DNA of 23,005 nucleotides from a virus: IMG/VR virus record IMGVR_UViG_3300009370_000912, positions 1-23,005 of that record; one strand, written 5' to 3'. Made by a program: the position numbers and the translations under genes. Of this stretch, positions 1-23,005 are shown one piece after another (within the stretch, counting starts at the first letter, position 1; every line of letters starts with the position of its first letter). Below the pieces are notes generated by a model. The model saw only the letters and a list, made by a program, of their open reading frames with translations. It did no database searches and was not told the DNA's origin.

Positions 1-25
1 AAAAGTAGCGTCTGAAATAAAATGA
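1..25 (+). CDS. Possible 3' end of an upstream gene (partial)
   Basis: Reading from base 2, seven codons (K V A S E I K) end at a TGA at 23-25 that overlaps the next ATG as ATGA. The same ATGA coupling is used at three other junctions in this window, so an upstream gene ending here is plausible. Another frame ends at TGA 13-15, so the frame cannot be decided from so few bases. Confidence 0.3.
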
Positions 26-852
26 GAAAGATATCCTGTTCAGCAAGAAAACAATGGGATGTTCATATCAAAGCATTTTTAGATAAACACATACAACACG
101 CAGAAGAATATTCTAATTTTACTTTTAGTTATGAAGATATAGATTCTGTATTTGGACAAACTGAATACAGTTGTCCTTTATATGGTGGGCGACCTGCTAA
201 AATGCCAGAAATGTTTGAAAAAGATATTGAATGGATTTATGATAAAGGTATTGGTCTTAAACTTACTTTACAAAATAAATTTATAACAGATGAGAAGTAT
301 AAAGAAAGTAAAAAGTTTTTAAAAGAATATCATAGAAAAGGAAATGCAGTTATTACAGCAACTGATAAGTTAGCTGAATATATTAGAAATGATTTTCCTG
401 ATTATAAAATAGAAGCAAGTTGCATACAAGATATTACAGATAATGAACACTATGAAAAAGTTGTTGCAAAGAATTTATATGATACAATTGTTTTACCTAT
501 TCATAGTAATGATGATTTAAAGTTTATAGAAAGTATTAAAAGAAAAGATTTATTAAGATTGTTTATGAATATAGAGTGTTCTTATAATTGTCCTAGTAAA
601 GTTTGTTATGGTACAACTTCTAAAATAAATAGAGAAGAGAGAAAAGGAATGATTTGTAGTTTAATTCATTTAGGTATGGAACGTACTTTTTATAATGATG
701 ATATAACTTGGAGCCAATTTTATTTTGATTTACCTAAATATGAACAAATGGGTATATCTAAATTTAAATTAGTTGCACCTCACGAAGAACAACAACGAAC
801 AGCATTAATGTATAAAAGAAACCATCAAATGTTAGCAAAGTCAGCAAAATGA
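22..852 (+). CDS. U32 peptidase-like (UbiU/UbiV/TrhP type) TIM-barrel protein, putative Fe-S
   Basis: This 276-aa protein resembles the core of the U32 'peptidase' family by eye. A beta-alpha pattern ends in TIVLPIHSNDDLKFIESIK (about 155-173). It is followed by LRLFMNIECSYNCPSKVCYG, where family members have their Cys-rich segment, and by a C-terminal LPKYEQMGISKFKLVAP that matches the family's 'L..aGI.slKIEGR' strand. Cysteines C186, C190, C195 and C212 could bind a 4Fe-4S cluster, as in UbiU/UbiV; C51 and C134 are further candidates. Known U32 members act in O2-independent hydroxylation of ubiquinone, tRNA or rRNA, and most are not proven proteases. The protein is shorter than most members (about 290-450 aa). 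The upstream sequence has no clear Shine-Dalgarno, which fits coupling to a gene ending at 25. The stop overlaps the hemB start as ATGA, so the two are probably made together. The assignment rests on pattern similarity, and the substrate is unknown. Confidence 0.45.
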   Translation: MRKISCSARKQWDVHIKAFLDKHIQHAEEYSNFTFSYEDIDSVFGQTEYSCPLYGGRPAKMPEMFEKDIEWIYDKGIGLKLTLQNKFITDEKYKESKKFLKEYHRKGNAVITATDKLAEYIRNDFPDYKIEASCIQDITDNEHYEKVVAKNLYDTIVLPIHSNDDLKFIESIKRKDLLRLFMNIECSYNCPSKVCYGTTSKINREERKGMICSLIHLGMERTFYNDDITWSQFYFDLPKYEQMGISKFKLVAPHEEQQRTALMYKRNHQMLAKSAK

Positions 853-1703
853 GATTAATACAACCAATATTCGCCAGTTATTCTACAAGAGATACTGGAT
901 TAGGTGAAGATAATAAAATCTATAATGCGTGGAAAGAAGTTAATGAACGTGTTAAGAAAGATATGGATTTAGGTGTAAAAGAATTTCTTTTATTCTATGT
1001 TCCTGAATTTAAATTAGGTGAAAAATCTGATACACATAGAGGTGATGAACATATTGATTCACATAAGTTTGACCAAGTATGTGTAACTGCCGCTAGTCTT
1101 TCAAGAGATATACAACCACAATGTAGATTAATTGTAGATGTATGTTTATGTTCATACACGCAAGACGGTCATTGTTGTATTATAGGCGACCAAGAAAAAA
1201 CAGATAAATTATTATTAGACCAAGCAAAATCAATTTATACAGCGTCTGGCGCTACAATAGCACCAAGTGATTGTCAAGACAATACAGTTAAAAATATTAA
1301 AGAAGTAAAAGATGGTAATATAGATGTTATGAGTTATAGTACCAAATTTCGTTCAACATTTTATAGAAGTTGGCGAAATGCAATGAAAATATCAAAAGGT
1401 ATTCATAGACCATATCAATTAGATGTACACGATAGAGAAGGTGCAATTAATCGTTCTATAAAATATTCAAATGATGGTGCAGATGAATTAATGTTAAAAC
1501 CAGGTATTACTAGTTTAGATTTAATTAAACCTATTAAAGAAGCTACAAATAAACCTGTTGGTGTATATCAAACATCAGGAGAATGGTTAGGTATAGGTGC
1601 GCCTGGTAGTTTAGAAGAAACATATCATATATTCAAAAGAGCAGGTGCTGACTATATGATTACTTATGGAGCAAGACGTTTAGCAAGACATCATAGACAG
1701 TAA
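849..1703 (+). CDS. hemB: Delta-aminolevulinic acid dehydratase (porphobilinogen synthase), HemB
   Basis: This enzyme condenses two 5-aminolevulinate molecules into porphobilinogen, the second common step of tetrapyrrole synthesis. The 284-aa product carries the family signatures in order. DVCLCSYTQDGHC supplies the three zinc-ligand cysteines C99, C101 and C109. SGATIAPSD lies at 133-141. MSYSTKF contains the A-site Lys K166. ADELMLKPG contains the Schiff-base Lys K217. YQTSGEW and RAGADYMITYGA follow. All catalytic elements therefore look intact. It is shorter than bacterial enzymes (about 320-340 aa), mainly because the N-terminal arm that builds the octamer is reduced and the protein starts almost at the first barrel strand (LIQPIF). 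The ATG overlaps the upstream stop (ATGA at 849-852), so the U32-like gene and hemB are coupled. Its own stop TAA (1701-1703) is the first arm of a dyad containing a late promoter. It is probably an auxiliary metabolic gene that raises haem or related tetrapyrrole supply during infection; that role is inference. Confidence 0.9.
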   Translation: MRLIQPIFASYSTRDTGLGEDNKIYNAWKEVNERVKKDMDLGVKEFLLFYVPEFKLGEKSDTHRGDEHIDSHKFDQVCVTAASLSRDIQPQCRLIVDVCLCSYTQDGHCCIIGDQEKTDKLLLDQAKSIYTASGATIAPSDCQDNTVKNIKEVKDGNIDVMSYSTKFRSTFYRSWRNAMKISKGIHRPYQLDVHDREGAINRSIKYSNDGADELMLKPGITSLDLIKPIKEATNKPVGVYQTSGEWLGIGAPGSLEETYHIFKRAGADYMITYGARRLARHHRQ

Positions 1704-1724
1704 TACTCATAAATAGTAGTATTA
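1701..1724 (+). promoter_or_regulatory. Late promoter CATAAATA inside a 7-bp inverted repeat
   Basis: TAATACT (1701-1707) and AGTATTA (1718-1724) are perfect reverse complements around a 10-base spacer containing CATAAATA (1708-1715). This is a one-base variant of the T4-type late element TATAAATA. The first arm contains the hemB stop codon and the second ends at the A of the oxygenase ATG. No Shine-Dalgarno is present. By T4 spacing the transcript would begin only a few bases before the ATG. The site at 3889-3912 has exactly the same geometry. Confidence 0.6.
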
Positions 1725-2341
1725 TGAGTAAACATTGCCAAATAGTAGAAGACCTAGATATTAATTTAGAGGAGTTAATAGCGTGTTATGAAGAGTTTAG
1801 AGAATCAAAAGGTTTTTCAACAGATAATCCTGATAATATAGATTTCAATGCTATATGTATCAACCGTAAACCTGGAGACCCCAAATCAATCTCTGGTGGT
1901 AATATCCGTGGAATCTATTGGACCTATCCTGACAATACAGGTAAAGAAGAACAAAGACTTGAAGAAGTTGAAGAAGAGAAATATACCCAAATTTGTCCAG
2001 AATTTAAAGGCACGTATATTGAGATTCTTTACGATTATTTAACATTAAGATTTAAGTTAGGTCGTGTTCGTTTTCTAATGAAACCACCTAGAAGTTGTTT
2101 AAGTTGGCACCGTGATCCAGAAAAGAGATTACATATCCCAATGATAACAAATGGTGGTAGTAGAATGGTTATTGAAGATGAGAGTTTTCATATGCCAGCT
2201 AATGGAAATGCTTATATTACTGATAATACGAAATATCACAACTTTTTTAATGGTGGTGAAACGTCAAGAGTTCACCTAGTTGCGACTTTATTACCTCCTA
2301 AAGAGATAGACAATGGTGGATTGTTAAATCTTGATAATTAG
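1724..2341 (+). CDS. 2OG-Fe(II) oxygenase, aspartyl/asparaginyl beta-hydroxylase-like
   Basis: This 205-aa protein has a C-terminal half that matches the Asp/Asn beta-hydroxylase branch of the double-stranded beta-helix oxygenases. It has SWHRD with H129 and D131, followed by RLHIPMITNGGSRMVI. Then comes DNTKYHNFFNGG with H172 as the likely distal iron ligand, and SRVHLVATLL, where R182 is placed to bind 2-oxoglutarate. Such enzymes hydroxylate protein side chains or small molecules using Fe(II), O2 and 2-oxoglutarate, and they are common accessory genes in T4-type marine phages. Residues 1-110 are acidic and not recognisable. The ATG lies directly after a CATAAATA element with no Shine-Dalgarno, which suggests late and nearly leaderless expression. 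The TAG stop overlaps the stop of the convergent minus-strand gene. The substrate cannot be read from the sequence. Confidence 0.75.
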   Translation: MSKHCQIVEDLDINLEELIACYEEFRESKGFSTDNPDNIDFNAICINRKPGDPKSISGGNIRGIYWTYPDNTGKEEQRLEEVEEEKYTQICPEFKGTYIEILYDYLTLRFKLGRVRFLMKPPRSCLSWHRDPEKRLHIPMITNGGSRMVIEDESFHMPANGNAYITDNTKYHNFFNGGETSRVHLVATLLPPKEIDNGGLLNLDN

Positions 2342-2544
2342 TCTTGTTCAGAATACAATGTTTGCGAGTATAGAGCTAAAATAAACATAGCAATTCCTAA
2401 CAATGACAAAGTACCACACAAAAACCAATTATCGTTCATAGGAATTCCTTTATAACCTCCGTCAATTGCGCCAACAGCACCAATTAACATCAAAGTACCT
2501 AATATTGAACAAATAATTGTTGTATATTCGTATAGTTTTTTCAT
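2338..2544 (-). CDS. Small two-TM membrane protein, unknown function
   Basis: The only minus-strand gene in the left half encodes 68 aa from an ATG at 2544 (MKKLYEYTTIICSILG). A TTG-initiated form from 2562 is possible, but the ATG has a well-placed AAGGA 5-10 bases upstream and is preferred. Two hydrophobic segments (about 8-26 and 41-59) flank a short hydrophilic loop containing GGYKGIPMNDNW, so two membrane spans are likely. A near-consensus sigma70 promoter lies upstream at 2602-2574. With its own host-type promoter and opposite orientation it behaves like an independently expressed, possibly early gene. It shows no recognisable family. Superinfection exclusion or lysis control are possible jobs for such proteins, but nothing here decides between them. 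Its stop overlaps the oxygenase stop. Confidence 0.65.
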   Translation of the reverse strand: MKKLYEYTTIICSILGTLMLIGAVGAIDGGYKGIPMNDNWFLCGTLSLLGIAMFILALYSQTLYSEQD

Positions 2545-3589: not shown

Positions 3590-3891
3590 TGCCAAAGCTA
3601 TGTAGGGATTTAGATTTAGGTACAACAGGTCACGGTTGTGATGTTGTAATAGGTGTTGAAGCAACACAATTTACAGTTAGAGCAAATAATAAACCAGTTG
3701 CTAGACTTAATGATCCTACATTACCACATACTAGACCAGCACCCCCTCCGCCACCGTGTATTCCACATATGGCTAAAGTTAACGTAGGTTCTTCTACAGT
3801 AAGAGCTCAAAATATACCTGTTGCAAGAGTTGGAGATTCTTATGATGGTGGAGAAATGATTCAAGGTTCTGATACAGTAAGAGCGGGATAA
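3589..3891 (+). CDS. 5.4: PAAR-motif protein, tail spike tip (T4 gp5.4-like)
   Basis: This 100-aa product (MPKLCRDLDLGTTGHGCDVV...) is close in length to T4 gp5.4 (97 aa). It shows the PAAR layout: repeated beta units with 'T..V.AN.KPVARLND' (about 28-40) and 'STVRAQNIPVARVGD' (about 68-82), joined by a Pro-rich segment (PHTRPAPPPPPC). Histidines and cysteines near HGC, PHT and CIPH can supply the metal ligands that sharpen the tip. PAAR proteins cap the trimeric central spike and are the first part to touch the cell envelope. An in-frame TTG at 3547 would add 14 residues, but the ATG at 3589 overlaps the preceding TAA and gives the expected N-terminus. The stop TAA is the first arm of the dyad before gene 25. 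Confidence 0.85.
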   Translation: MPKLCRDLDLGTTGHGCDVVIGVEATQFTVRANNKPVARLNDPTLPHTRPAPPPPPCIPHMAKVNVGSSTVRAQNIPVARVGDSYDGGEMIQGSDTVRAG

Positions 3892-3912: not shown

Positions 3913-4421
3913 TGGCACAAGACAACCAAGCATTTTTAGGCGATTATACACCAAACGTTAAAAGTTCTAGTAAAAGGCAATCTAGGAAGTTTAGAGATAT
4001 AGATTTAGACTTTGGAAGACATCCAGTTACTAATGACGTTAATATGGTTGAAGACGCTATAGCTATAAAAAGGTCAGTAAAAAATTTAATACAAACAAAT
4101 TTCTATGAAAGACCTATGCATCCAGAATTAGGATGTGGTATAAGAGAATTGCTGTTTGAAAATTATACACCAGTAATGTCAGTATATCTAAAAAGAAAAA
4201 TAGAAGAAGTTTTAATTAATCACGAACCTAGAATTGTATTAACTGGTATTACAATAAATGGAGATGATTTTGACCAAGGAGAACAACATCAACAATTGGA
4301 TGCTAATAGATTAGCTTCTAATGATATAGATGGTAATAGATTACGTATAGATATTTATTTTGATATCATAGGTGTACCACACCCACAAACAGTTTCAATG
4401 ACTTTACAAAGGTTAAGATAA
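3912..4421 (+). CDS. 25: Baseplate wedge protein gp25 (GPW/gp25 family)
   Basis: This 169-aa protein has the gp25 core: DIDLDFGRHPVTNDVNMVEDAIAI (30-53), then VKNLIQTNFYERPMHPELGCGIRELLFE and a C-terminal LRIDIYFDIIG. gp25 is the wedge component that contacts the sheath initiator region and is conserved across contractile injection machines (phage P2 gpW, T6SS TssE). T4 gp25 is 132 aa. The extra length here is a hydrophilic N-terminus and an insert around DDFDQGEQHQQLDANRL. It starts directly at the second arm of a late-promoter dyad, without a Shine-Dalgarno. Gene 6 follows one base after its stop, matching the conserved 25-6 order. Confidence 0.93.
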   Translation: MAQDNQAFLGDYTPNVKSSSKRQSRKFRDIDLDFGRHPVTNDVNMVEDAIAIKRSVKNLIQTNFYERPMHPELGCGIRELLFENYTPVMSVYLKRKIEEVLINHEPRIVLTGITINGDDFDQGEQHQQLDANRLASNDIDGNRLRIDIYFDIIGVPHPQTVSMTLQRLR

Positions 4422-4422
4422 A

Positions 4423-6276
4423 ATGGCACAACATAAATTAGAAGTATCAGAATTAGATTTTGATAAAATAAAAGCAAATTTAAAAGTTTTTTTACAAAGT
4501 CAAACACAATTTCAAGACTATGATTTTGATGGTGCAGGTTTAAATATTTTATTAGATGTTCTATCTTACAACACTCACTATTTGTCATACATTGCTAATA
4601 TGTCAACTAATGAAATGTATTTGGATAGTGCAGACATAAGAAAAAATATTGTTTCATTAGCAAAGATGTTAGGATATACTCCTACATCTCCTAGAGCACC
4701 AAGAGCAGTTATTGATATTGTTGTTAATAACGCAACTGGTTCGTCTGTAACTATGCAGAAGGGAACAGTTTTCTCAACTACAGTTGATAAAACAGATTAT
4801 CAATATGTAACTAATGCAGATATAACAATTTCACCAGAAAATGGAGTTTATAAATTTGAAGATGTAACTGTTTATGAAGGAACATTGGTTACATTTAAAT
4901 ATACTAATGATGTAAATGATAGTGACCAAAAATTTGTTATACCTAGTTCTTATGCAGATACTTCAACTTTAAAAGTTACCGTTCAAAATAGTGGAACAGA
5001 TACAACACAATCAGTTTATTCTTTAGCAGGTGGTTATAATGATGTTGCAGGTGATTCAAAAGTTTATTTTATACAAGAAGGTACAGATAGTCAATACGAA
5101 ATTTATTTTGGTGATGGTGTAACTGGTAAAAATTTAGAAGATGGTAATATTGTAATAATGGAATATATTGTAACTAATACAGTAAATTCAAATGGTGCTT
5201 CAAAATTTTCATTAGCAGGAAACATTGGTGGTTATACAAACGTAACTATAACTACTGATTCTAATTCTCAAGGTGGTGCAATTGGAGAATCAAGTTCTTC
5301 AATAAAATTTAACGCACCTTTACATTATGCTGCTCAAGATAGAGCAGTTACAGCAACTGATTATGAAACTTTAGTTAAATCAATTTATCCAAATGCAAAA
5401 TCAGTAAGTGCGTGGGGTGGTGAAGATGATGAAACTCCACAATATGGTGTTGTAAATATTTCTATTAAAGCAAAATCAGGATCAGTATTATCAGATACAT
5501 CAAAAGCTGATATTGTAACTCAATTAAAACCATATAACGTTGCTTCAGTAAGACCAGTTATAAAAGATCCAGAAACAACTTCTGTAATAATTACTTCAAA
5601 TGTTAAGTATGACGCAAAGGCAACAGCAAAAACTGCTGATACTATAAAGGCAGATGTTATTGATAAGTTAATAACTTATAATGCTACTACTTTACAAAAG
5701 TTTGATTCAGTATTCAGATATTCAAAAGTTACAGGTTTGATTGATAGTACAGATGATAGTATTCTATCAAACATTACAACTGTTAAAATTAGAAAAGATT
5801 TCCAACCAATAATTAGTACATCTTCAAAATATAATATCTATTTTAGAAATGCATTATATAATCCACACTCGGGACATTTATCAAGTGAAGGTGGAATATT
5901 AAGTTCATCAGGATTTAAAATAGATGGTAATGCTAACGAATGCTTTTTTGATGATGATGGCGCAGGTAATGTAAGATTATATTATTTGTCAAGTGGAGTA
6001 AAATCTTATTTAAATTCAACACAAGGTACAATTGATTATTCAACAGGTGCAATAACACTTAATTCAATGAACGTTGTTAGTATATCAAATATAAGAGGTG
6101 CAACTTCAACTGTAATTGAATTAACAGTAACACCAAGTTCTAATGATGTTGTTCCAGTTAGAGACCAAATTGTTGAAATGGATATTGCAAATTCAAGAAT
6201 AACAGTTACAGCTGATAGTTTTGTAGGAGGAAGTGCTGAGGCAGGTGTCGGATACACAACTACTTCCAGCTACTAA
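4423..6276 (+). CDS. 6: Baseplate wedge protein gp6
   Basis: At 617 aa this is close to T4 gp6 (660 aa). The N-terminus aligns well with T4 gp6: LKVFLQSQTQFQDYDFDGAG, LNILLDVLSYNTHYLSYIAN, then MYLDSADIRKNIVSLAKMLGYTPTS. The central part contains the gpJ-like 'YFGDGVTGK' and the 'YAAQDRAVTATDYETLVKSIYPNAKSV' region typical of gp6/gpJ baseplate proteins. gp6 dimers link neighbouring wedges into the iris ring and change shape during sheath contraction. It starts one base after gene 25 ends, and the next ATG lies six bases after its TAA. No Shine-Dalgarno is obvious, so translational coupling is likely. Confidence 0.93.
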   Translation: MAQHKLEVSELDFDKIKANLKVFLQSQTQFQDYDFDGAGLNILLDVLSYNTHYLSYIANMSTNEMYLDSADIRKNIVSLAKMLGYTPTSPRAPRAVIDIVVNNATGSSVTMQKGTVFSTTVDKTDYQYVTNADITISPENGVYKFEDVTVYEGTLVTFKYTNDVNDSDQKFVIPSSYADTSTLKVTVQNSGTDTTQSVYSLAGGYNDVAGDSKVYFIQEGTDSQYEIYFGDGVTGKNLEDGNIVIMEYIVTNTVNSNGASKFSLAGNIGGYTNVTITTDSNSQGGAIGESSSSIKFNAPLHYAAQDRAVTATDYETLVKSIYPNAKSVSAWGGEDDETPQYGVVNISIKAKSGSVLSDTSKADIVTQLKPYNVASVRPVIKDPETTSVIITSNVKYDAKATAKTADTIKADVIDKLITYNATTLQKFDSVFRYSKVTGLIDSTDDSILSNITTVKIRKDFQPIISTSSKYNIYFRNALYNPHSGHLSSEGGILSSSGFKIDGNANECFFDDDGAGNVRLYYLSSGVKSYLNSTQGTIDYSTGAITLNSMNVVSISNIRGATSTVIELTVTPSSNDVVPVRDQIVEMDIANSRITVTADSFVGGSAEAGVGYTTTSSY

Positions 6277-6282: not shown

Positions 6283-8859
6283 ATGGCAAAATTTACTGAT
6301 AAAATTTCATCAATAATTTCAGGACAATTACCTGAATTCATAGTTAGCGAACATCCAAAGTTTGCTGAGTTTCTTAAAGTCTATTATCAATTATTAGAGT
6401 CTGCTGAATTATCAGTAACTTCTATTAAATCAACAGAAGGTATCTTATTAGAAACAGAAACTAATCAAGCTAATAATTTAGTATTAGACGCAAGTGCTTT
6501 AGGTAGTGCAAGAACATCACTAGACGCAGGAGATAAAATTATTTTTGAAAAATATTCTGGTACTGAATATGGAAAATTTGAAAGAGGTGAAACAGTTACA
6601 GGACAAACTTCTGGTGCAACTGCTGTTTTATTAACAGAAGATTTAGATAATGGTCGTTTATTCATAACTGCTAACAGTAAATTTATAGATGGTGAAACAA
6701 TTGTAGGTGGTAGTTCAAATGCTTATGCAGTAATAAGTAATTATAAACCCAATCCTGTAAATAATATTGCTGACCTAGTTAACTTTAGAGACCCAGACGG
6801 TGTTATAAGTTCTTTCTTATCAAATTTTAGAGATGAATTTCTTGCAACATTACCAGATAAATTAGCAAACAAAGTTGATAAAAGAAATCTTATAAAAAAT
6901 GTTAAATCTCTTTATCGTTCTAAAGGTACGAATAGAGGACACGAAATATTTTTTAGAATATTATTTAATGAAGAATCACAAACATTTTATCCAAGAGAGA
7001 ATTTATTAAGAGTATCAGATGGTAAATATGATACATTAAAAGTTATGAGAGCAATTGGTGATAGTGGTGATACAGCGCAATTAGTTGGAAGAACAATAAC
7101 AGGTTCAACTAGTTCAGCATATGCAATTGTTGAAAATGTTAATAAGTATCAAATTGGTGCAGATACAGTTACAGAATTTATTTTAAATAATGATTCTATT
7201 CAAGGTATATTTCAAATTGGTGAACAAATAGTAGGTACTGCTTCAGATGAAGACGATTGGTATATTAAAGGAACTATAACTGGAATTCCAGGAACAAAAG
7301 TACTTACAAATGATGGTGCATTAAATGAAACTGCTGATACAGTTAAAGTTGTTGCAGGTGGTGTTGGTGCTATATTTACTATTGATGAAATTGGTTCAGG
7401 TGAATTAACAGATATTGTAATTACAAACAAAGGCGCAAACTATTCAGTTGGTGATGAATTAGTATTTGATAATAGTGGAACTAACGGAAGGGATGCTGCT
7501 GGATTTGTAAGAGTTGTTAATGGTGGTATTGCAAGTGAAACTTCTGGCCAAATAGTTTTAGAAGATGGTACTAATGCAGGTGACCAATATTTTGGTAATA
7601 GTATTATGCAAGAAAAAGATACAGGCAATGGAACAATTGAAAAAATATTTTTAACTTATAATGGTACAGGATATACTTCTTTACCTACTGTAACTATAAA
7701 CTCATCAACAGGTTCAACTGGAACTGTAAATGCTTGGGGTAATGAGATTGGAAGAATTGTTAAATTAAAAACAGTTGAATTAGGAAAAAAATATCAAGAC
7801 GCTCCTACTCCTCCAACATTATCATTTTATAATAGTGCTATATTATCAAATGCAACAGGAGCTTTTACAGTTGGACAATCTTGTACAACATCAAGTGGAC
7901 AAGGAACAATTGTTTCATATAACTCTAATACAAATGTATTAAGAATAAAAGATATTACAGGCACATTTACAGAAGGTCAAGTATTATCAGCAGATTCAGG
8001 TGGTTCAGGAACTATTGCAAAAAATGATCCTGCCTCAGCAACAGTTAATGTAGTTTCAGTTGCAGATACAGATGGAATCTTTATTAATGAAGATGGTAAA
8101 CTTTCTGAAAGTACAATGAAGATACAAGATAGTTTATACTATCAAGATTTTTCTTATGTATTGAAAGTTGCTAGTTCCATTGCAGTATGGCGGGATGCAT
8201 TTAAAAAGACAATGCATACAGCAGGTTTTTATTTTACAGGTCAAGTAGATATAACAAATAGAATAGACGCAAGAGGATCGTTGCCTATGATTGGTGCTGT
8301 TTCTGGTAGACAAGAAGTTGAAATACCATTAATTGCAATTCTTAATACTTTATTCTCGGTTATATTTGGTAGAAGATTAGGAACAATAGATGATGGAACA
8401 TCTTTAAGAGCAAATGCTCTTGAATCAGGAACAATTGACCAAGACCCACAAACACACGAACACTTTGCTAATAATCAAAGGGATGTAACTCTAACAAGAG
8501 CTGGAATAGATTATGATTATTTAACTAGAAAAAGGTCATCAATAGATAAGCAACTTGTTAAACAAGGTCACGCATATGCAGGACCACGTTGGGGAACTTT
8601 AGACAAATACGCAACTACTATATTTGCAAATGATATAGGATATACGTTTAAAACATTTAATGAATTAAAGGTATTTGGAACAAGGACTAGTTTAGATGGA
8701 CGAAGTGGAATATTCTTAATGTCTTCTGACCCTAATGGTAAAAACGTTAAGATGATGACTGCTTTTCCTTCAGTAGTTACATATAACCAAAATGACTTTA
8801 GTAATACAGTTGTAAGGTGGGATGATGAAGGACCACTTTTTGATGATACAACACCGTAA
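6283..8859 (+). CDS. Baseplate wedge-associated structural protein (858 aa)
   Basis: The N-terminus (FTDKISSIISGQLPEFIVSE, HPKFAEFLKVYYQLLE) and the segment LIKNVKSLYRSKGTNRGHEIFFRILF (about 203-228) are typical of a conserved structural protein that follows gp6 in T4-type cyanophages. Between and after these are beta-rich modules: 'FERGETVTGQTSGATAVLL' (about 99-117), 'GRTITGSTSSAYAIV', and two 'NKGANYSVGD' / 'NGTGYTSLPTVTI' units. The C-terminal part (about 640-858) has helical and mixed sequence. Its position between gp6 and gp8 is that of T4 gene 7, but I see no convincing similarity to T4 gp7. It probably works in the wedge or its periphery. The next gene follows after a late promoter. 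Confidence 0.75.
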   Translation: MAKFTDKISSIISGQLPEFIVSEHPKFAEFLKVYYQLLESAELSVTSIKSTEGILLETETNQANNLVLDASALGSARTSLDAGDKIIFEKYSGTEYGKFERGETVTGQTSGATAVLLTEDLDNGRLFITANSKFIDGETIVGGSSNAYAVISNYKPNPVNNIADLVNFRDPDGVISSFLSNFRDEFLATLPDKLANKVDKRNLIKNVKSLYRSKGTNRGHEIFFRILFNEESQTFYPRENLLRVSDGKYDTLKVMRAIGDSGDTAQLVGRTITGSTSSAYAIVENVNKYQIGADTVTEFILNNDSIQGIFQIGEQIVGTASDEDDWYIKGTITGIPGTKVLTNDGALNETADTVKVVAGGVGAIFTIDEIGSGELTDIVITNKGANYSVGDELVFDNSGTNGRDAAGFVRVVNGGIASETSGQIVLEDGTNAGDQYFGNSIMQEKDTGNGTIEKIFLTYNGTGYTSLPTVTINSSTGSTGTVNAWGNEIGRIVKLKTVELGKKYQDAPTPPTLSFYNSAILSNATGAFTVGQSCTTSSGQGTIVSYNSNTNVLRIKDITGTFTEGQVLSADSGGSGTIAKNDPASATVNVVSVADTDGIFINEDGKLSESTMKIQDSLYYQDFSYVLKVASSIAVWRDAFKKTMHTAGFYFTGQVDITNRIDARGSLPMIGAVSGRQEVEIPLIAILNTLFSVIFGRRLGTIDDGTSLRANALESGTIDQDPQTHEHFANNQRDVTLTRAGIDYDYLTRKRSSIDKQLVKQGHAYAGPRWGTLDKYATTIFANDIGYTFKTFNELKVFGTRTSLDGRSGIFLMSSDPNGKNVKMMTAFPSVVTYNQNDFSNTVVRWDDEGPLFDDTTP

Positions 8860-12418: not shown

Positions 12419-15400
12419 ATGCCAAGTCCAACAGATTTTAATTTATCGCCCTATTATGATGACTTTAACGAAAGTAAAAAGTTTCATAGAGTTCTTTTTA
12501 GACCAGCATTTGCTGTACAGGCGAGAGAATTAACACAAGCACAAACTCAATTACAAAATCAAGTAGAGAGGGTATCAGACCATCTATTTGAAAAAGGTGC
12601 TATGATTATACCTGGTGAAGTCGGGTATGATTTAAATTACACTTCAGTAAAACTTTCAGCAAAATCAAACTCAACATTAGCAGATTATAATGGATTAACT
12701 TTAACAGGTGCAACTTCAGGACTTGTTGCAAAAGTTATAGGTGTTGCAGTTGCAGATGGAACTGATCCAGATACATTATATGTAAAATATTCAACAAGCG
12801 GAACAAATAATACATCAACTGCTTTTACTGATTCAGAAACTTTAAATTGTACGATTAATAGTTTACCTGCTACAGCAACTGTTGCTTCAACACACATAGG
12901 ATGTGCTGCTGAAGTTCAAAAAGGAGTTTATTATATTAATGGATATCACGTTGAAGTATTACAACAAACTATTGTTCTTGACAAATATACAAATACACCT
13001 TCTTATAGAATAGGTTTAGTAGTTGCAGAATCTTTTGTAACTCCAAATGAAGACGCAAGTTTAAATGATAATGCTCAAGGATCATCAAATCAAAATGCTC
13101 CAGGTGCTCATAGATTTAAAATTGATTTAACATTAACAAAATTATCTTTAGCTTCAACAGCAGATAAAAATTTTATAGAATTATTAAGATTAAAAAATGG
13201 TATTTTACAAAATAGAGTTAGAAATACAGAATACGGAGTATTAGAAGATACTTTTGCTCGTAGAACGTTTGACGAATCTGGTGATTATATTACTAAAGGG
13301 TTTGAGTTAGATGTTAGAGAACATTTACTATCAGGAGATAATAGAGGTATTTACTCTTCAGGTTCAGGTGGTGATTCATCTAAACTTGCAATAGGTTTAG
13401 CTCCTGGAAAAGCATATGTTAAAGGTTATGAAATAGAGAAATTAGGAACAACTTTTGTTGATGTAAATAAATCAAGAGATTTTGATACACAATCAAATTT
13501 AAAAACTAGATATGATATAGGAAATTATTTAAATGTAACTAACGTTTATGGTTCGCCAGATGTTGGTTTCGTTTCAGGTGATATAGAATCATATAAAGGT
13601 CTTGATTTATATAAATCAGCAACTGCTGTTAGAGGAACAGGTAATGCTGGAACTCTTTCAGGTATTAATACAATAGGAAGAGCTAAATCAAAAGGGTTTG
13701 AATATTCAACTGGTACTGCTACTAATAATATTTTTTCAAGTGCAGGTTTAACAAGTTCAGTTTTTAAACATTTTATATTTGATTTAGAATTATTTACTCA
13801 CTTAAATATTTTAGAAGCAACATCATTTACAACTGGTGAAACTGTAACAGGAAGTACTTCAGGTGCTACTGGTGTAGTTCAATCAGTTTCTACAGCAGAA
13901 ACAGTTACTATTAATAATATAACTCAATCAAATCCAGCAGAAGTTCAAATTGCAACTTCTCATCAATTACAAGATGGACAACAAATAACAATTGCAGGTG
14001 TTGGAAGTTCTTGGGCAATTGATTCAGTTGTAACTACTGGTGGAACATTTACAGTTAGAGATAGAGGTACTACAAATTGGTATCTGTATAAAGAAGATGG
14101 AATAACTCCTGTTAATTGTACAACTCCTGGTGTAGGTGGTACGGCAACTCACGGAGTTGTAGTTCTTTCAAATGTACAAGGTTCTTTTGCTCAAAATGAA
14201 ACAATCACAGGTGGAACATCAAGTAATACAGGAACTATACAAACAAATACATTAGGAAGAAAAGGAGTAAGAACGTTTGGAACAGATGACATTAAACAAG
14301 TTTCAATGGCAGGTTCTCCAACGTATACTTCGGATGTAGTATCTGATACTAAAAATATGACAGGTACAATATCTGTAACAGGTGCAGGAAAAACAATTAA
14401 TGGATTTGGTACAAGATTTACAGATGAATTAAGACCTGGAGATAGAATTACATATACAACTGATACTCCTCTTTCTGAAACAAATGAAGTTGCTTATGTT
14501 ATTAATGATACAACTTTTGCAGTAACTACTGGTGCAGGTGCAAACGTAACTAAATCATCTTTTACTAGAGGACGTGGTGAAATTAAAGAAGCAAGTAAAA
14601 ATATTTCTATCTTTAAAATGCCACACGAAACTATTAAGACATTAAAGACAACTGCTAATTCTGGTATAACAGATACAAATTTTGCAGTTAGAAGAAATTT
14701 TACAGCAACATTATCAGGTAATGGTGACGCTTCAATTACAGCAGGAACAAATGAAACTTTTGCTGGATTAACAGAAAAAGATTTTTCTGTATCTATTATG
14801 GCAACTGGTGGTGGTGGTTCTGGTGCCGTGGGAGATGTATTAAGTTTAGAAGGTACTAACCATTTAGCACAAACAATATTTTCATTAGGAGGTTCTCCAA
14901 CTGGTAAAACTTTAACATTAAATTTTGGTACTAGTTATGCAGGACATAAAATAAAAATTTTAGCAACAGTTAATAGAAGTGTTGCAAATTCTAAATCTAA
15001 AACTTTAAATAGTTCGCAAACAGTACAAATTTCTACACAATCAATTATAGAAAGTGGAACAATTGGTTTAGGTAGAGCAGATGTTTATGCTGTAGCTAGT
15101 GTTCATATGGCAAGTGACTTTGCTACAAATGCAACAACTGCTGATACAAATATTACAGATAGATTTAATATAGATACAGGACAAAGAGATAACTTCTATG
15201 ATATTGGAAGATTAAAATTAAAAACAGGTGCATTAACACCTACAGGAAGATTATTAGTTACATTTAGTTATTTCTCACACGGTTCAGGAGATTACTTTGA
15301 TGTAGACTCTTATTCAGGTGTTGTAGATTATGAAGATATTCCATCATATGAATCAGCAACAACTGGTGAAAGATTTGAATTAAGAGATACTTTAGATTTT

Positions 15401-18400
15401 AGACCAAGAGTTAATGATTCTTCAACAATAGATTCAGGTAATCAAGACCGTACTTATGACGGTACAGGTTCATCAGCTTTTGATATAATAAAATTTGGTA
15501 CAGATATTACTTCTGACTTTGAATATTATTTACAAAGAGTTGATAAAATATTTTTAGATTCAAATGGTAAATTTCAAGTATTAAGTGGTGCAAGTTCATC
15601 AACACCAGATATACCTGGTTCTTTAGATAATGCTATGCATATGTACACTTTGTTTTTACCTAGTTATGGATTAAACACAGCAGACGTTAGTATAGAAACA
15701 GTTGACAACAGAAGATATACAATGAGAGATATTGGACATTTAGAAAGAAGAATAGAAAATGTTGAATATTATACTCAATTATCTTTATTAGAAGTTGCTG
15801 CTCAAACATTACAAATACAAGACGCAGATGGTTTTGATAGATTTAAAAATGGATTTGTTGTAGATAATTTCACAGGACACTCAATAGGTGATCCAGGAAA
15901 TGTTGATTATAAAGTTTCAATGGATATGGCAAAAGGTGAAATGAGACCAACGTTTAATGAGGATGCAGTTCAACTTATTGAACGTGATGAAGATGGTACT
16001 GCTATTACTGCCGCTGATAGAACAGCTGGACAATATCAAAAAACAGGAGATTTAATTACATTACCTTATACTGAAACAGCTTTAATAACTCAACCTTATG
16101 CAAGTAAATCAATTAATGTTAACCCATTTGGAATATTTACTTGGATTGGTTCAATTGCATTAACACCAGCAAATGATGAATGGAAAGAAACAGAAAGAGC
16201 ACCAGAATTAACAATTACAAATGATGATGGTTCTTGGGATACTTTAGTTAAAGAATCTGGTAATCCAAATCTTCAATCTGTAGAATTAGGAACAGTTTGG
16301 AACGAATGGACAAATAATTGGACTGGACAACAAACAACTAATAGTACAGAAAGATTTGAACAAAGAGGTGGTCACGGTTGGAGAGTGATGGAGAGAGATA
16401 TCCAAACAACTACATCAACTGGTACAAGAACAAGAACAGGAATTAGACAAGTATTAGTTCCAAAAACAGTTACAACAAATGTTGGTGATAGAATTATAAG
16501 TGTAGCGTTTGTTCCATTTATTAGAAGTAGAACAGTATCATTTACTGCTTCAAGAATGAGACCAAATACAAGAGTTTATGCTTTCTTTGATAGTGATGAT
16601 GTATCTGCTTATATAACACCAAATGGAGGTTCTTTAGGTGGTAATCTTGTCACGGATGCTAACGGTTCTGTAACGGGAACTTTTGCAATACCTGATCCTA
16701 AAGTAGATTCAAATCCAAGATGGAGAACAGGTCAAAGAATTTTTAGATTAACAAGTTCATCTACAAATGTTTTAACACAAGCGCCAGATACGGCTGCTAA
16801 TGCTGAATATATTGCCAGAGGTATTATAGAAACAGTACAAAATACAATTATCTCTACAAGAACAGCGGGAGTTGAATTTAGAGCAACTAACGAAACAGAA
16901 AATATTACAAGAACAGATGTCCAACGAGGTGCAAGTAGACAAGTTGGTTATCACGATCCACTAGCACAAACATTTATGATAGATGATGAAGGTGGTGTTT
17001 TCTTAACATCTATAGATTTATTTTTCAGTTCTAAAGACGCTAATATACCTTTAACTTTACAAATTAGAAATACAGTAAACGGTTATCCAGGACAAAATAT
17101 ATTACCATTTAGTGAATTGTCATTAAATCCAGCTGATGTTAATGTAAGTGCTGACGCAACAGTTAAAACTACATTTACGTTTCCAAGTCCTGTATATGTA
17201 CAAGAAAATACAGAATATTCTTTTGTATTAATGGCTAACTCAACTGACTATAATTGTTATGTTGGAAGATTAGGAGAAACAGTAATAGGTTCAGATAGAA
17301 CAATATCAGCACAACCATATGCTGGTGTAATGTTTAAATCACAAAACGGTGTAACTTGGACAACTGAACAAAACGAAGATATTAAATTTACATTGAAGAG
17401 AGCAGAATTTGAAAATGTAACTGGAGATGTTCACTTAACAAATGATACTTTACCAGCTAGAACACTTAAAAATAATCCAATTAGAACAACAAGTGGTTCT
17501 GATATTGTTAGAGTTTATCATCCAAATCACGGAATGCACGGCACATCAAACAATGTAACTATTTCAGGAGTGCCAGCAGGAACACATAATGGATTAGCAC
17601 ATAGTTCAATTAACGGAACATATACAAGTATATCAAACGTAACTTTAGATAGTTATGATATACAAATACCAGGTTCTACAAACGCAAATACTTCAGGAGA
17701 TATTGGAAGTAATGCTGTAACAGCAACACAAAATAGAAAATATGATGTATTAAATTTATCAGGTGTACAAACAATGAAAGTACCTAATACAAGTATTGAA
17801 TGGTATATTAGACCAACTACTGGACAATCAATGCACGGTTCAGAATCAGAATTTAGTTTAACTTCAGTTGCAAATAAAATTGCTGTTGTTAATTCTGAAA
17901 ATATACATTTTAATAGTCCAAAAGCTATAATGAGTGAAATAAATGAACAAAATGAAATGTCAGGTCAAAAATCATTTTTCTTAAATTTAAAACTTTTAAC
18001 TAGTAATACAAAAGTATCACCAGTTTTAGATACACAAAGAACGAGTGCTTTTGTAATTTCAAATAGATTAAATAATCCAACGTCTGGTAATACACCAGAT
18101 TTTGTTAGTGATGTTTCTTCAACAGGTTCATCAACAGCTGCTGTTTATTTAACTAAACCTGTAGTGTTAGAAAATTCATCAACATCTTTAGATGTTAGAT
18201 TGACTTCAAATATTAGGTCTAGTTCAACTGTACAAGTTTATCATAGAACAATAGGTGCTGAAGATGAAAGAAAAATTGATGATTTATCTTGGACACCATT
18301 TAATACAAATGGTGAAGAAGATTCAGCAATAGTTCCTGCCGAAAATGATACAACATTTAAAGAATACAAATATTCTGTAGCAGGGTTGAATCAATTTACA

Positions 18401-18717: not shown

Positions 18718-19602
18718 ATGGCTGCTAGACAGATATTACCAAATCAAACGTTAGAAGATTTAAGAGTTCAGTTTAATCTCTTATCTGCTGATGACTTTGG
18801 CGACATAGGAACGTTAGATCCAGGTTTGTCAGCAACAAGTGTTATAGGTGCTGTAAATGAATTGTCTGCTCAAGTATTTGCTGCTGAAGGTTGGAAGATG
18901 GAAGATTCAACTTCAACACAACAGGTGGTTGGTGCAGGTCAAGTTGCTAGATTTCTTGGATCATCAGGAATAACTGCTGTTGTATCTTCTCCAGATACAT
19001 TAACAATATCATTAACAGACGCTGTATCTGTTGCAACTTCTGTAACAGCTCCAACACTTTATGCAGGTAATTTAACTTTATCAAGTGGTTATATTACAGA
19101 CTCAAGTGGTATTATAAATTTTGATAATGAAAATATAACAACAACTAATGAAGTATCTGGTGGTACTGGTACTTTTGGAACAGTTGTAGGTACAGGTGGA
19201 ACTCATACATTAGGAACAGTTCAAATTTCTGGTAATCAAATTTCATCTACAGATTCTACAGAATTAGTTGTTAATGATAACTTACAAATTTTAGGAGATG
19301 TAAAAGCAAATAATTTTACTCCTTTATCAGGAGACCAAGTTACTGTAAATTCTAATTTAGAAATAGGTCAAAATAAAGGTATCTTCTTTGAAGGTGCAAC
19401 AAGTGATAGTTTTGAAACTCAATTAACTGTAGTTGATCCAACAAGTGACCAAATAATAACATTTCCTGACGCAACAGGAACAGTTGCTTTAACAAACACA
19501 ACAGGTTATGCGACAGGTAGTATTTTTACTGCTTCAGTATCTTTAGTAATATACAATTCAGCAGGGGTAGCGCAAAAGACGATTGTTGGTAGTGCTACAT
19601 AG
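18718..19602 (+). CDS. Beta-rich virion structural / fibre-like protein (294 aa)
   Basis: The N-terminal segment (LPNQTLEDLRVQFNLLSADD, then FGDIGTLD and SVIGAVNELSAQVF) resembles the attachment end of short fibre or structural proteins in marine T4-type phages. The rest is low-complexity Thr/Ser/Gly/Val beta repeats such as 'GTGTFGTVVGTGGTHTLGTV' and 'TFPDATGTVALTNTTG', which suggest a trimeric beta-helix shaft. It has no globular head of its own, so it may be a shaft to which another protein binds. It is tightly packed, with one base after the coiled-coil gene and an AGGAG before the following gene. The function is inferred from composition and place. Confidence 0.6.
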   Translation: MAARQILPNQTLEDLRVQFNLLSADDFGDIGTLDPGLSATSVIGAVNELSAQVFAAEGWKMEDSTSTQQVVGAGQVARFLGSSGITAVVSSPDTLTISLTDAVSVATSVTAPTLYAGNLTLSSGYITDSSGIINFDNENITTTNEVSGGTGTFGTVVGTGGTHTLGTVQISGNQISSTDSTELVVNDNLQILGDVKANNFTPLSGDQVTVNSNLEIGQNKGIFFEGATSDSFETQLTVVDPTSDQIITFPDATGTVALTNTTGYATGSIFTASVSLVIYNSAGVAQKTIVGSAT

Positions 19603-19613: not shown

Positions 19614-20543
19614 ATGGCTATACGAGCTCCTCTATATTATAGCGCAGGCAATTTGAAAGAAATGACTTCTGCCGAAGTCAATGAAATTGTTTCACAAATA
19701 ATATATCAATATTCATTAGCACCTTCTGTTGCATTATCAGTAGTTGGTTCTGGTGGTAATGTAGGATCAATAACAGATACAAGACAACAAGCAGGTGAAA
19801 TGCATACTCATAATTCATCTTTTCCAGCTGAATCAACAACAAATGAACCTACAACGGTAACTGTTACCTACGATAAAATTACAAAGACAACAAACTCTGG
19901 TTCAGCTCCAACTGATTCAGGAAAAACTTGGCCTGTCTATAGAACAGCGACTAATAATATTCAAGCAATGTCATTGCAAGATATTAAAGATACTTTTCTT
20001 CATCCTGCAATAGATTTATTAGTAAGTGCAAGTTTAGGAACTGACCAAGGTGGTACGTATCATATTAACACTTCAAATAATGTTGCAGGTTCTACTTTAG
20101 TTAATGGAACACCAATTTTTGTAAATACTCAAGCAGATACAACTGCTTATTCACCAGGAACAATTGGAGACCACGCATTGGATAATCCTACAACAATTCA
20201 AAATTATTATTTACATAGAATAGATGGTGCCAATAACACTCCAAAAACACCACTTTATGTTACCGCTGGAAATGATTTAAGAGAATATGTAACAGCAGAT
20301 TTTAATACTTTAATAGGTAATGCTCTTAAATATACTGCTGGTTCTTCAGCAGATGGCTATAAAATAACTTATAGTTATTCATCAGGAACAAATAGAGGTT
20401 CTGGTATGGCAGATACAATATTATCTGGTACAGGTGATTATCAAACAAGATATGTAAATACAGATGATTATAGAGCGCAAGAGTTTCCAACTGGTACACC
20501 TACAACATCAAATACTTGGTATTTGAAAATAAGTAAAGCTTAA
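19614..20543 (+). CDS. Conserved-type virion structural protein (309 aa)
   Basis: The start (MAIRAPLYYSAGNLKEMTSAEVNEIVSQI) resembles proteins found in pairs after fibre genes in marine T4-type phages. The middle contains 'WPVYRTATNNIQAMSLQDIKDTFLHPAIDLL' (about 105-135) and a second similar phrase, 'TPLYVTAGNDLREYVTADFNTLI' (about 218-240), which restates the N-terminal 'APLYYSAGNLKEMTSAEVNEIV'. An internal repeat architecture is therefore likely. The C-terminal part is Ser/Thr-rich beta sequence ending NTWYLKISKA. An AGGAG lies nine bases before the ATG. It is probably a minor tail or fibre component; the exact role is unknown. Confidence 0.6.
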   Translation: MAIRAPLYYSAGNLKEMTSAEVNEIVSQIIYQYSLAPSVALSVVGSGGNVGSITDTRQQAGEMHTHNSSFPAESTTNEPTTVTVTYDKITKTTNSGSAPTDSGKTWPVYRTATNNIQAMSLQDIKDTFLHPAIDLLVSASLGTDQGGTYHINTSNNVAGSTLVNGTPIFVNTQADTTAYSPGTIGDHALDNPTTIQNYYLHRIDGANNTPKTPLYVTAGNDLREYVTADFNTLIGNALKYTAGSSADGYKITYSYSSGTNRGSGMADTILSGTGDYQTRYVNTDDYRAQEFPTGTPTTSNTWYLKISKA

Positions 20544-20559
20544 ATTATAGGAGTAGATT

Positions 20560-21057: not shown

Positions 21058-22117
21058 TCCATTCTTCTTTACAAGAGTGTATATCAGTTTCAGGACCAGC
21101 AAAGTGTACTATTTTTATATTAGGATGTGGTTTATCTAATATCATATAATCCTCTTTAAATCTTTTACAATACTCTACATTATTTTCTAAATTTTGTTCT
21201 TTATCTAAAGTATATTTACCAATCCATTTACCTTTAATTAAAGATATCGGTATATTATTTTTAGTTGCTATATCTTCAACAAAGTTTTGTTCACCAAAAT
21301 ATTTGTAATGTACTTGTCCTGTATTATAATAATGTAATTGCCATTTTTCTGGATCTTTTATAAAAGTATCCCATATAACTTTACATTGTCCAGATTTAAA
21401 TTTAAAGAATCCTCCTTGAAGTTTTGGTTTTGGTAATCCCCACCATTTATCATAAGATACTAATTCATTATCTACTACAGGCCAACCTATTAAATCATCC
21501 ATATTATTTACAATAATTTGGTCAATATCCATAATAATAATTTCATCTGTAGGTTTTTGTTCCATAAATTCTGGATTAAAGAAAGATAATTTATGCCAAT
21601 GGCGTTTTATTTTACTATCTTTTGGTAAAGGAATAACTTTATCTGCTTTAACATTTGGATTATCACTATAACAAATAAATTCAAATGGAAATGTACAGTA
21701 TGTTTTTAATCCATTATAAAGTTTTGCAACATAATCAGGTGAATATTTTCCTTCAAAATAAACACAACATATTTTAATATTAGTTTTTCTAGCTTCTGTA
21801 AGCTTGAAAAAACCCCCTCCACTTTCTTTTCCTCTTGCTTTATTAAGAGATTGATATAAAGGAATACCACAAAATTTTTGACAAAGTATAGCTGGATCAG
21901 TTTTTAATTCTTCAAAAAAGTTTTGCCATTCTTTACTATTAATAATATCTTCTATCTTTTCGTTATTTGAAACTTTTAAATGTTTTTGTGTTATTCTTTC
22001 TATTTGAGGTTCTATTAAAGCTACAGGAGTATCTACCCAACAACACGGCAGTATATAACCTGTTGCTGAATAAGAAAGTTCTTTAAACGATAAGCATTTT
22101 GGATTAATTTTTTTCAT
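21026..22117 (-). CDS. SPASM-like domain fused to a GT-A glycosyltransferase
   Basis: This 363-aa protein has two parts. Residues 1-100 look like the SPASM/twitch Fe-S domain normally found at the C-terminus of radical SAM enzymes: INPKCLSFKELSYSATGYIL, PCCWVD, and later CQKFCG, with C8, C25, C26, C79 and C83. Residues about 112-340 form a glycosyltransferase of GT-A fold: KICCVYFEGKYS at the first strand, DEIIIMDIDQIIVNNMDDLI with the metal-binding D197-x-D199, LQGGFFKFKSG (233-243) and GEQNFV (275-280). The protein would transfer a sugar from a nucleotide-sugar; the acceptor is unknown. The start ATG lies immediately after the TAA of the radical SAM gene and in the same frame, so the SPASM domain may belong functionally to that enzyme. 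The 3' end overlaps the convergent late-block gene by 32 bases. Confidence 0.8.
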   Translation of the reverse strand: MKKINPKCLSFKELSYSATGYILPCCWVDTPVALIEPQIERITQKHLKVSNNEKIEDIINSKEWQNFFEELKTDPAILCQKFCGIPLYQSLNKARGKESGGGFFKLTEARKTNIKICCVYFEGKYSPDYVAKLYNGLKTYCTFPFEFICYSDNPNVKADKVIPLPKDSKIKRHWHKLSFFNPEFMEQKPTDEIIIMDIDQIIVNNMDDLIGWPVVDNELVSYDKWWGLPKPKLQGGFFKFKSGQCKVIWDTFIKDPEKWQLHYYNTGQVHYKYFGEQNFVEDIATKNNIPISLIKGKWIGKYTLDKEQNLENNVEYCKRFKEDYMILDKPHPNIKIVHFAGPETDIHSCKEEWIKSYWYLPKV

Positions 22118-22816
22118 TTATTTTTCTAATTTATCTAATGCTACTTTCCAATCTTTATAACCTTCATTTTTTATATTTTTAAACATTCGTAAATCATTAT
22201 TATAACGGTTAACATAGTAATTTGGATTTCTAGGTTTATATTTGTCACCACCCAAACCCCAACGACCTGAAAAAACTAAATCAAATTCAATATTGTTTGC
22301 CTTTGCCATACCTCTTGCTTCTTCTATGTCATTTTCATTATATCTGAAAACAATATATTGCCAAACAGAAGTTTTACATTTTTTAGCACATAACTTTGCC
22401 ATTTCAAATAATTTTTCACCATCTTGATGAATTCTATATTTGTGACTATCTTTAGGTAGACCATCAATACCAAACATCCAAACTGCTTTAGGATTTACAT
22501 CAAATGCTTCTTCATACCATTTTACAGGTTTGTGTGTGGATGCTGTATTAATCGTTACTGGAATATTTTTTTTGTAACAATATTTTAACATTTTAATTAA
22601 TAAAGGATTAGCAGTAGGGTCTGATATTTGACCACAAAAAAGTAATCCTTTTTCAAAGTAATTAGCAATTTTTATAAAATCACCCCACGGCATATCTTTA
22701 CCAGGTACTTTATGTCCAACTTTTCTTATTGCTTGTCTTTGACATTTAGGACACTCTAAAGGACACTTATGACTAGAGTCTATATTAATTTTTCTATTTG
22801 AAAAATCGTATATCAT
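22118..22816 (-). CDS. Radical SAM enzyme core (no SPASM of its own)
   Basis: This 232-aa product has the canonical CxxxCxxC cluster motif, C18-PLE-C22-PK-C25, in SSHKCPLECPKCQRQ. It is followed by a phage-type SAM-binding 'LLFCGQISDPTANPLL' strand and repeated beta-alpha units (VTINTAST, AVWMFGIDGLPKDSHKYRI, SVWQYIVFRYNEND) of a partial TIM barrel. The protein ends right after the barrel. The auxiliary-cluster (SPASM) domain expected for this subgroup is found instead at the N-terminus of the next gene, in the same frame and separated by a single TAA. Such enzymes carry out radical chemistry on peptides or sugars. The coupled glycosyltransferase hints at glycan or glycopeptide modification. 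The start ATG overlaps the stop of the upstream gene (ATGA on the minus strand). Confidence 0.88.
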   Translation of the reverse strand: MIYDFSNRKINIDSSHKCPLECPKCQRQAIRKVGHKVPGKDMPWGDFIKIANYFEKGLLFCGQISDPTANPLLIKMLKYCYKKNIPVTINTASTHKPVKWYEEAFDVNPKAVWMFGIDGLPKDSHKYRIHQDGEKLFEMAKLCAKKCKTSVWQYIVFRYNENDIEEARGMAKANNIEFDLVFSGRWGLGGDKYKPRNPNYYVNRYNNDLRMFKNIKNEGYKDWKVALDKLEK

Positions 22817-23005
22817 TTACACTTTCCACAATGTCTTTGACATTGCCATATAGCATTAACATCATTCCAACTATTAGGTAATGTTTCTGTATACCATTTA
22901 TGATTTATTATATCTAGTAAACTAGAAGTAAAAATATTAAGTTCTTTTTTATATTTTTCATATTCTTTCATAACTGGATGTTTCATAAAATCAGTTTGTT
23001 CAGAA
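22813..23005 (-). CDS. C-terminal end of an unknown protein with a Cys-rich tail (partial)
   Basis: The minus strand is open from the window edge to a TGA at 22815-22813, giving at least 63 residues: a helical part (MKEYEKYKKELNIFTSSLLD), then WYTETLPNSWNDVNAIW and a terminal CQRHCGKCK. The stop overlaps the radical SAM start as ATGA, so it is the upstream member of the same operon. The C-x3-C-x2-C tail could hold an Fe-S cluster or zinc. No start is visible inside the window with a ribosome site, so the gene continues beyond it. It may be another radical SAM-related or sugar-modification partner; the identity is unknown. Confidence 0.7.
   Translation of the reverse strand, partial: SEQTDFMKHPVMKEYEKYKKELNIFTSSLLDIINHKWYTETLPNSWNDVNAIWQCQRHCGKCK

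Follow-up and report, generated by a model that had tools for sequence, protein, structure and literature searches.

Why is a short DNA word kept in one sequence context of a phage genome and lost from all others? The question is raised by the virus record IMGVR_UViG_3300009370_000912 of IMG/VR, analyzed here over all of its 23,005 bases (the window), in which a sequence-only reading had noted that the tetranucleotide GATC occurs only as GGATC or GATCC. Judged from its sequence, the window is part of the genome of a T4-like phage, a relative of the SAR11 (Pelagibacter) myophages; its closest named relative is the Pelagibacter phage Mosig EXVC030M (72% over gp6), and gp6 of phage HTVC008M is 55% identical. 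Our analysis revealed that GATC, GATGC and, in relatives, GANTC are avoided, that all three words are exempt where their GA follows another G, and that this combination is confined to a single phage lineage among those compared. A protective modification of the phage's own DNA at 5′-GGA is the probable explanation.

GGATC and GATCC represent a single site seen from either strand, and we use flank for a G directly preceding GATC or a C directly following it. Every one of the 26 GATC sites in the window carries a flank, with the hexamers GGATCA (11), TGATCC (9), AGATCC (2), CGATCC (1), GGATCC (1), GGATCG (1) and GGATCT (1). For comparison, the synonymous codons of the 17 open reading frames (ORFs) of the window (7,267 codons) were shuffled 2,000 times. 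GATC in other contexts was far from its expected frequency, with 0 unflanked sites against a shuffle mean of 28.6 and a minimum of 17. In the window, any depletion of the exempt form is slight, as 25 one-flank sites were found against a shuffle mean of 32.9 and 65 of the 2,000 shuffles were equally low. The codon choices described by the sequence-only reading were also confirmed. Before C-starting codons other than CCN, Asp is encoded by GAC in 24 of 24 cases, while GAT is used in 15 of 21 cases before CCN and predominates before the remaining codons (GAT 366, GAC 60); Arg before TCN is AGG (3) or CGT (3) and never AGA, with AGGTC present at 4071, 8533 and 18215.

A second word is not mentioned in that observation. 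All seven GATGC sites of the window are preceded by G, more than the shuffle mean of 2.0 (2 of 2,000 shuffles were as high), and other contexts are absent against a mean of 31.1. Since none of the 2,000 shuffles reached 0 unflanked GATC or 0 HGATGC, chance, composition and codon bias were ruled out for the window. CATG and TCGA are likewise absent (shuffle means of 33.2 and 18.5, respectively), as are CTAAG, CACTG and AGCCT, and the avoidance of GATC, GATGC, CATG and TCGA extends along the whole length of the window. Type II restriction-site avoidance, understood as depletion of words beyond the codon and composition expectation, is therefore present in the window, where unflanked GATC, HGATGC, CATG and TCGA all number 0 against the 2,000 codon shuffles. 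The exempt sites are located as follows:

2114..2118, minus strand, GGATC
3712..3716, minus strand, GGATC
4118..4123, minus strand, GGATGC
4298..4303, plus strand, GGATGC
5479..5483, plus strand, GGATC
5566..5570, minus strand, GGATC within gp6; GATC at the same position in 10 of 10 near sequences compared
7491..7496, plus strand, GGATGC
8026..8030, minus strand, GGATC
8193..8198, plus strand, GGATGC
8275..8279, plus strand, GGATC
9483..9487, plus strand, GGATC
9798..9802, plus strand, GGATC
9942..9946, minus strand, GGATC
10206..10210, plus strand, GGATC
10575..10579, minus strand, GGATC
11657..11661, plus strand, GGATC
11783..11787, plus strand, GGATC
12029..12033, plus strand, GGATC
12112..12117, both strands, GGATCC, the sole window site with GGATC on each strand
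12764..12768, minus strand, GGATC
13079..13083, plus strand, GGATC
15890..15894, minus strand, GGATC
15961..15966, plus strand, GGATGC
16654..16659, plus strand, GGATGC
16694..16698, minus strand, GGATC
16955..16959, minus strand, GGATC
18817..18821, minus strand, GGATC
18958..18962, plus strand, GGATC
19435..19439, minus strand, GGATC
19764..19768, plus strand, GGATC
21351..21355, plus strand, GGATC
21894..21898, plus strand, GGATC
22538..22543, plus strand, GGATGC

The flank contexts of GATC were then counted in relatives, as the sequence-only reading had proposed, with expectations from a first-order Markov model (given below as observed/expected). Unflanked GATC numbered 0 in HTVC008M, in Mosig and in 34 "near" loci (304,677 bases; the window itself is L001, and L002, whose gp6 is 100% identical to that of the window, was left out). 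The near loci, which are related and not independent (third-position differences of 7-25% in the nine compared), contained 0 unflanked GATC sites against 469 expected and 259 flanked sites against 201, and in their gp6 exempt sites also arise at differing positions. In HTVC008M (147 kb), GATC with none, one and two flanks was counted at 0/232.5, 55/89.0 and 28/8.5, and the same pattern was found in G053 and G054 and, with few sites and a low one-flank count, in G056 (0/75.7, 6/31.0 and 4/3.2). Mosig (141 kb) has retained GGATCC alone (0/226.9, 0/93.7 and 19/9.7), as have G013, G014 and G001. Across 45 more distant loci (323,379 bases), we counted 2 unflanked sites against 456, 15 one-flank sites against 174 and 65 GGATCC sites against 17, the last excess being probably inflated by a shared site. 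When 80 loci found with HTVC008M gp6 were sorted into data-defined classes (unflanked GATC at most 5% of the composition expectation), 26 were one-flank exempt (unflanked 0/573, flanked 247/249), 51 were non-avoiding and 3 had few sites. Simple Dam-type avoidance, which the sequence-only reading had already doubted, would deplete all GATC contexts uniformly; instead, GGATC is tolerated in the window (25/14.1) and in G054 (112/105.1).

The same flank relieves two further words. GANTC with none, one and two flanking G residues was counted at 0/264.6, 33/101.2 and 10/9.7 in HTVC008M, and pooling this phage with G053, G054 and G056 gave 34/835 unflanked and 199/352 one-flank sites, with G056 in agreement for this word. 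GATGC in HTVC008M was counted at 9/117.6 after H and 14/22.5 after G, and counts after G versus other contexts were 50/47 versus 19/240 in the near loci, 20/25 versus 13/120 in Mosig and 23/27 versus 12/127 in G053. When all 4-mers, 5-mers and gapped 5-mers were scanned, the preceding-G exemption of GATC ranked first in HTVC008M, G053, G054 and the near loci; GANTC words were among those listed for HTVC008M, G053 and G054, and GATGC among those for HTVC008M, G053, the near loci, and Mosig with G013. A flanking G did not rescue words with a beginning other than GA, namely ACGT in Mosig (0/69), TCGA in HTVC008M (1/70) and CATG in the window (0/26) and the near loci (0/373). In the 11 of 80 Mosig-like loci chosen for having zero unflanked GANTC, one-flank GGANTC numbered 26 against 111 expected. 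We had considered a narrower context, GGA with A, C or T as the next base, based on GGAGTC (0/73 in four genomes), and withdrew it because Mosig (0/18) and G013 (0/14), which do not avoid GANTC, are depleted of GGAGTC too. The feature common to the three exempt words is thus 5′-GGA-3′. The sequence-only reading had looked to modified bases at GGATC; the modification part of that proposal is supported, while its GGATC scope proved too narrow.

Is the exemption a property of the nuclease or of the phage? HTVC019P and HTVC008M have the same recorded host, Pelagibacter ubique HTCC1062. HTVC019P exhibits plain GATC avoidance (0/61.4, 0/23.1 and 0/2.2 for none, one and two flanks), and so do 80 loci of related podoviruses (953,140 bases), in which a single GATC was found against approximately 2,069 expected and GGATC was purged as well (1 versus 562 expected). 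Nor did a flank bring relief to GANTC in these loci (one-flank 37/676, unflanked 198/1,744). HTVC010P, also recorded with HTCC1062, does not avoid GATC. As the same-host HTVC019P and the 80 podovirus loci purge GATC without exemption, the exemption is a trait of the phage lineage and not of the nuclease, restricted to one lineage among those compared. The podovirus loci (L255-L334) have also purged GGATGC (0/166) at normal levels of other GATGC (1001/858), which suggests that they avoid GGATG/CATCC.

We propose that these phages are exposed to endonucleases cutting GATC, GATGC and, in relatives, GANTC, plus CATG, TCGA and others, and that the three words have been lost except where their GA comes after another G. 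A phage-borne mark in 5′-GGA-3′ of the phage's own DNA would block cutting there, so that such sites are tolerated. The adenine of GATC and GANTC is the base that cognate methylation protects, and the GG-adjacent adenine would therefore be the simplest place for the mark. In the HTVC008M class and the clade of the window, a mark on one strand would be enough at GATC; Mosig-like phages, which keep almost only GGATCC, behave at GATC as if both strands needed marking, and at GANTC and GATGC they do not. We infer a base modification behind the exemption, placed on the adenine and made by one or both proteins of the DruA family.

The search for DNA methyltransferases suggested by the sequence-only reading yielded no answer. 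Profile searches for five families (PF05063, PF01555, PF02086, PF00145 and PF05869) found none of them in HTVC008M, where the one NPPY-bearing ORF found is a DUF6433 protein, and four of the five were not found in G053. The C5 methyltransferase family PF00145 was found in 1 of 16 records, the T4-like phage Melnitz, and not in HTVC008M, Mosig, G053 or the 12 others; a wider C5 motif matched Melnitz and nothing in HTVC008M, Mosig, G053, G054 or G013. The slot beside the DNA polymerase gene is occupied by an MT-A70 gene in Mosig, a C5 methyltransferase gene in Melnitz and the DruA-family gene gp122 in HTVC008M. MT-A70 was rejected as the protector of GGATC because loci with and without it both keep GGATCC. 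Among the DNA polymerase loci (L092-L243), presence of MT-A70 mostly coincides with tolerated CATG and absent ACGT, and its absence mostly with missing CATG and retained ACGT, while CATG is missing from several MT-A70 loci that are more distant. D12 methyltransferases (L244-L247, L415) are identical in G015, G016, G017 and G021, which do not avoid GATC, and a different one is found in the GATC-avoiding G054.

PF14236, the DruA family, was detected in 13 of 22 records, 12 of them over the cut-off and including Mosig, HTVC008M and G053; Melnitz, HTVC010P and HTVC019P gave no match, and neither did the exempt records G001, G056, G057, G002, G003 and G005, each of them a fragment. HTVC008M encodes two such proteins, gp122 and a paralogue at 86.0-87.3 kb, and the annotated neighbors of the DruA gene in this phage are replication and recombination genes. 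Family membership exceeded the gathering score of 27 for gp122 (40.9 bits) and for the L540 protein (79.6 bits). The L239 protein, whose gene lies close downstream of the DNA polymerase gene, was modeled from 44 sequences with a predicted local distance difference test score (pLDDT) of 79 and a predicted template modeling score of 0.75. Foldseek matched the model to GNATs in the PDB (best E of 6.4e-3), and VIA-align placed phage Mu Mom (8bv8_A) first, with a Z of 9.3 and 185 aligned residues at a root mean square deviation (rmsd) of 4.7. In BFVD, Salmonella phage Mom was match 7 (E of 2.3e-3), after five matches without informative names and an amidoligase, and a cyanophage homologue that is 50.9% identical bears the annotation "methylcarbamoylase mom". 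GATC is not avoided in the cyanophages that have a DruA-like gene, which therefore provide no test of a link between DruA and the exemption. Two scans for DruA loci with the signature of the near loci, covering the best 80 relatives out of at least 600 and out of 145, respectively, returned none, and locus L477 of the first scan combines a DruA-like gene with the one-flank exemption (0 unflanked and 5 one-flank GATC sites). Because a shared fold does not prove function, the assignment is a hypothesis, and whether one or both DruA-family proteins are the GGA-modifying enzyme is about evenly balanced.

Several observations weigh against this proposal. PF14236 also occurs in relatives without GATC avoidance, seven of the 31 homologue-bearing records have stretches without it, and the clade of the window, searched as tail-region fragments only, yielded no DruA-like gene. 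No Foldseek match of the L239 model in the PDB fell below an E of 0.001; the Z of Mom lies within 1 of many ordinary GNATs (Z of 8.2-9.0 over 135-162 residues among those listed), with a larger rmsd; and the model of the paralogue, though GNAT-like, is weak (pLDDT of 70, best Z of 5.4, Mom 4.8). G053 contains a PF01555 fragment below the cut-off (14.3 versus 26.7 bits), and the exempt G054 also carries its D12 methyltransferase. The exempt GATC is itself partly depleted (one-flank 55/89 in HTVC008M, 37/96 in G053), and the GGATGC exemption is weak in G013 (3/17.0 versus 2/80.8). In Melnitz, which has another host and no DruA, all GATC forms are strongly depleted (10/309, 10/136 and 3/15), and any gradient pointing the same way is weak; we did not count it as an exemption. 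Finally, GGANTC is depleted in Mosig (27/103.9), G013, the near loci and the window (4/15.6) though unflanked GANTC is near normal there, and the GGA-modification model gives no account of GGANTC depletion in phages that tolerate other GANTC.

The modification might instead lie in the same GGA context on the cytosine of the opposite TCC, placed by an unrecognized cytosine-modifying enzyme. Avoidance data are blind to the difference between the A of GGA and the C of TCC, and cytosine C5-carboxymethylation at GC is described in a Synechococcus phage (PMC12783734). We nevertheless hold this to be unlikely, as PF00145 is confined to Melnitz among the 16 records and the candidate enzyme resembles Mom, which acts on adenine N6 (PMC7824862). 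Similarly unlikely, though compatible with GGA marking, is that nucleases encoded by the phages themselves cut host or competitor DNA, with their own genomes kept safe by word loss and the GGA mark. The reported near-absence of restriction systems from SAR11 genomes (PMC7029224, PMC9516812), the lack of GATC avoidance in HTVC010P despite its shared recorded host, and the fusion of Mom domains to nuclease domains in jumbo phages (PMC7824862) speak for it; against it, unrelated podoviruses purge the same GATC, and in a narrow test for the DpnII family (PF04556), none of 19 records reached the cut-off and two gave matches below it.

That a host methyltransferase marks GGA-containing sites, with the phage simply benefiting, is improbable: these clades may have different hosts in nature, but HTVC019P and HTVC008M share a recorded host and only the latter is exempt, and none of the 80 podovirus loci shows the exemption. 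The sequence-only reading had left the choice between a context-dependent nuclease and a protective modification, and the data favor the latter. Nucleases unable to cut after a preceding G would account for the GATC pattern of the window taken alone; however, as the exemption is common to GATC, GANTC and GATGC, they would have to share one peculiarity across three specificities and show it against a single phage lineage, and the podoviruses purge GGATC too, which makes this explanation highly improbable. Slightly less probable still is a dedicated GGATC-specific methyltransferase of the AlwI type that shields GGATC only. The D12 methyltransferase of G054 would suit it, but we rejected it because the five families were not found in the exempt HTVC008M, nor four of them in G053 (the fifth being the fragment below the cut-off), and because GGANTC and GGATGC share the exemption. 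Composition, codon usage or chance, favored by low G+C and nothing more, has virtually no standing after the shuffles.

Other flank exemptions were observed. In the window together with L003-L035 and L037, GCTGAG is kept at 65/57 versus 10 sites of CTGAG after other 5′ bases, and CCAGAG at 62/57 versus 8 others; GCTAAG and GGTGAC are exempt in G053, and AGCCG and GCCGA in HTVC008M. The exemptions of GCTGAG, CCAGAG, GCTAAG, GGTGAC and AGCCG may reflect other DNA modifications. As for gene content, the window encodes a porphobilinogen synthase (ALAD/HemB, PF00490; 849-1703), for which an annotated phage collection had only distant matches (in 9 records, none reaching 60% identity; 7 of these lack annotation), as well as ribosomal protein L7/L12 (3123-3488) and a PAAR protein. 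According to PMC7029224, other heme genes occur in a deep-ocean pelagimyophage, and some members of the pelagimyophage group PMP-A encode L12.

Phage site avoidance (reviewed in PMC12707154, citing Rusinov et al. 2015 and 2018), Mom modification (PMC7824862) and the depletion of GANTC in about half of 33 pelagiphages (PMC9516812) are already known. The window resembles other avoiding phages in the near-complete loss of short type II recognition words and differs from them in that the leftover sites of three words share one flank, which points to a protective context. HTVC008M is GANTC-depleted by our counts as well, while a flank rule is not mentioned in the available part of PMC9516812. Unlike Dam-class (D12) methylation by phages, the carriers of which in G015, G016, G017 and G021 do not avoid GATC, protection in the window depends on a preceding G and not on the word GATC.

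Mu Mom recognizes the motif S-A-S-N-Y, unlike the proposed GGA. It is a GNAT-family enzyme of DNA adenine acyl-modification; the DruA-like model is predicted to be GNAT-like, with Mom as the top-ranked structural match, and an adenine marked in a short context would in both cases block several restriction enzymes. The DruA-like protein is longer, belongs to PF14236 and is found in T4-like marine phages. It shares family membership above the Pfam cut-off with DruA (PF14236, DUF4338) of Druantia type I, whereas its place beside the DNA polymerase gene in HTVC008M and its lineage would fit a protective rather than a defense gene. PMC7251935 describes what DruA does as unknown, and the whole word DruA does not occur in PMC12458937 or PMC13192584. 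Among the papers listed in searches of open-access PMC literature, we recognized no GGA-context exemption, no report on GATC context in pelagiphages, and neither an activity of DruA nor a link between DruA and DNA modification.

We consider it possible, at somewhat short of an even chance, that DruA-family proteins act as Mom-like acyltransferases in the T4-like phages of SAR11 and cyanobacteria, hypermodifying 5′-GGA in the DNA and shielding these ocean phages against a dense set of sequence-specific nucleases that sequenced SAR11 hosts are thought to lack. DruA is thereby named as a testable enzyme family, and since HTVC008M and Mosig are both cultured, with one recorded cultured host, the proposal can be tested directly. 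If it is true, sequence alone can disclose the recognition context of a DNA modification of unknown nature in a phage, and flank-dependent exemptions in avoided words could be read as a fossil map of such modifications. It would also imply that SAR11 phages face heavy sequence-specific cleavage, even though SAR11 is reported to be almost without restriction systems (PMC7029224, PMC9516812).

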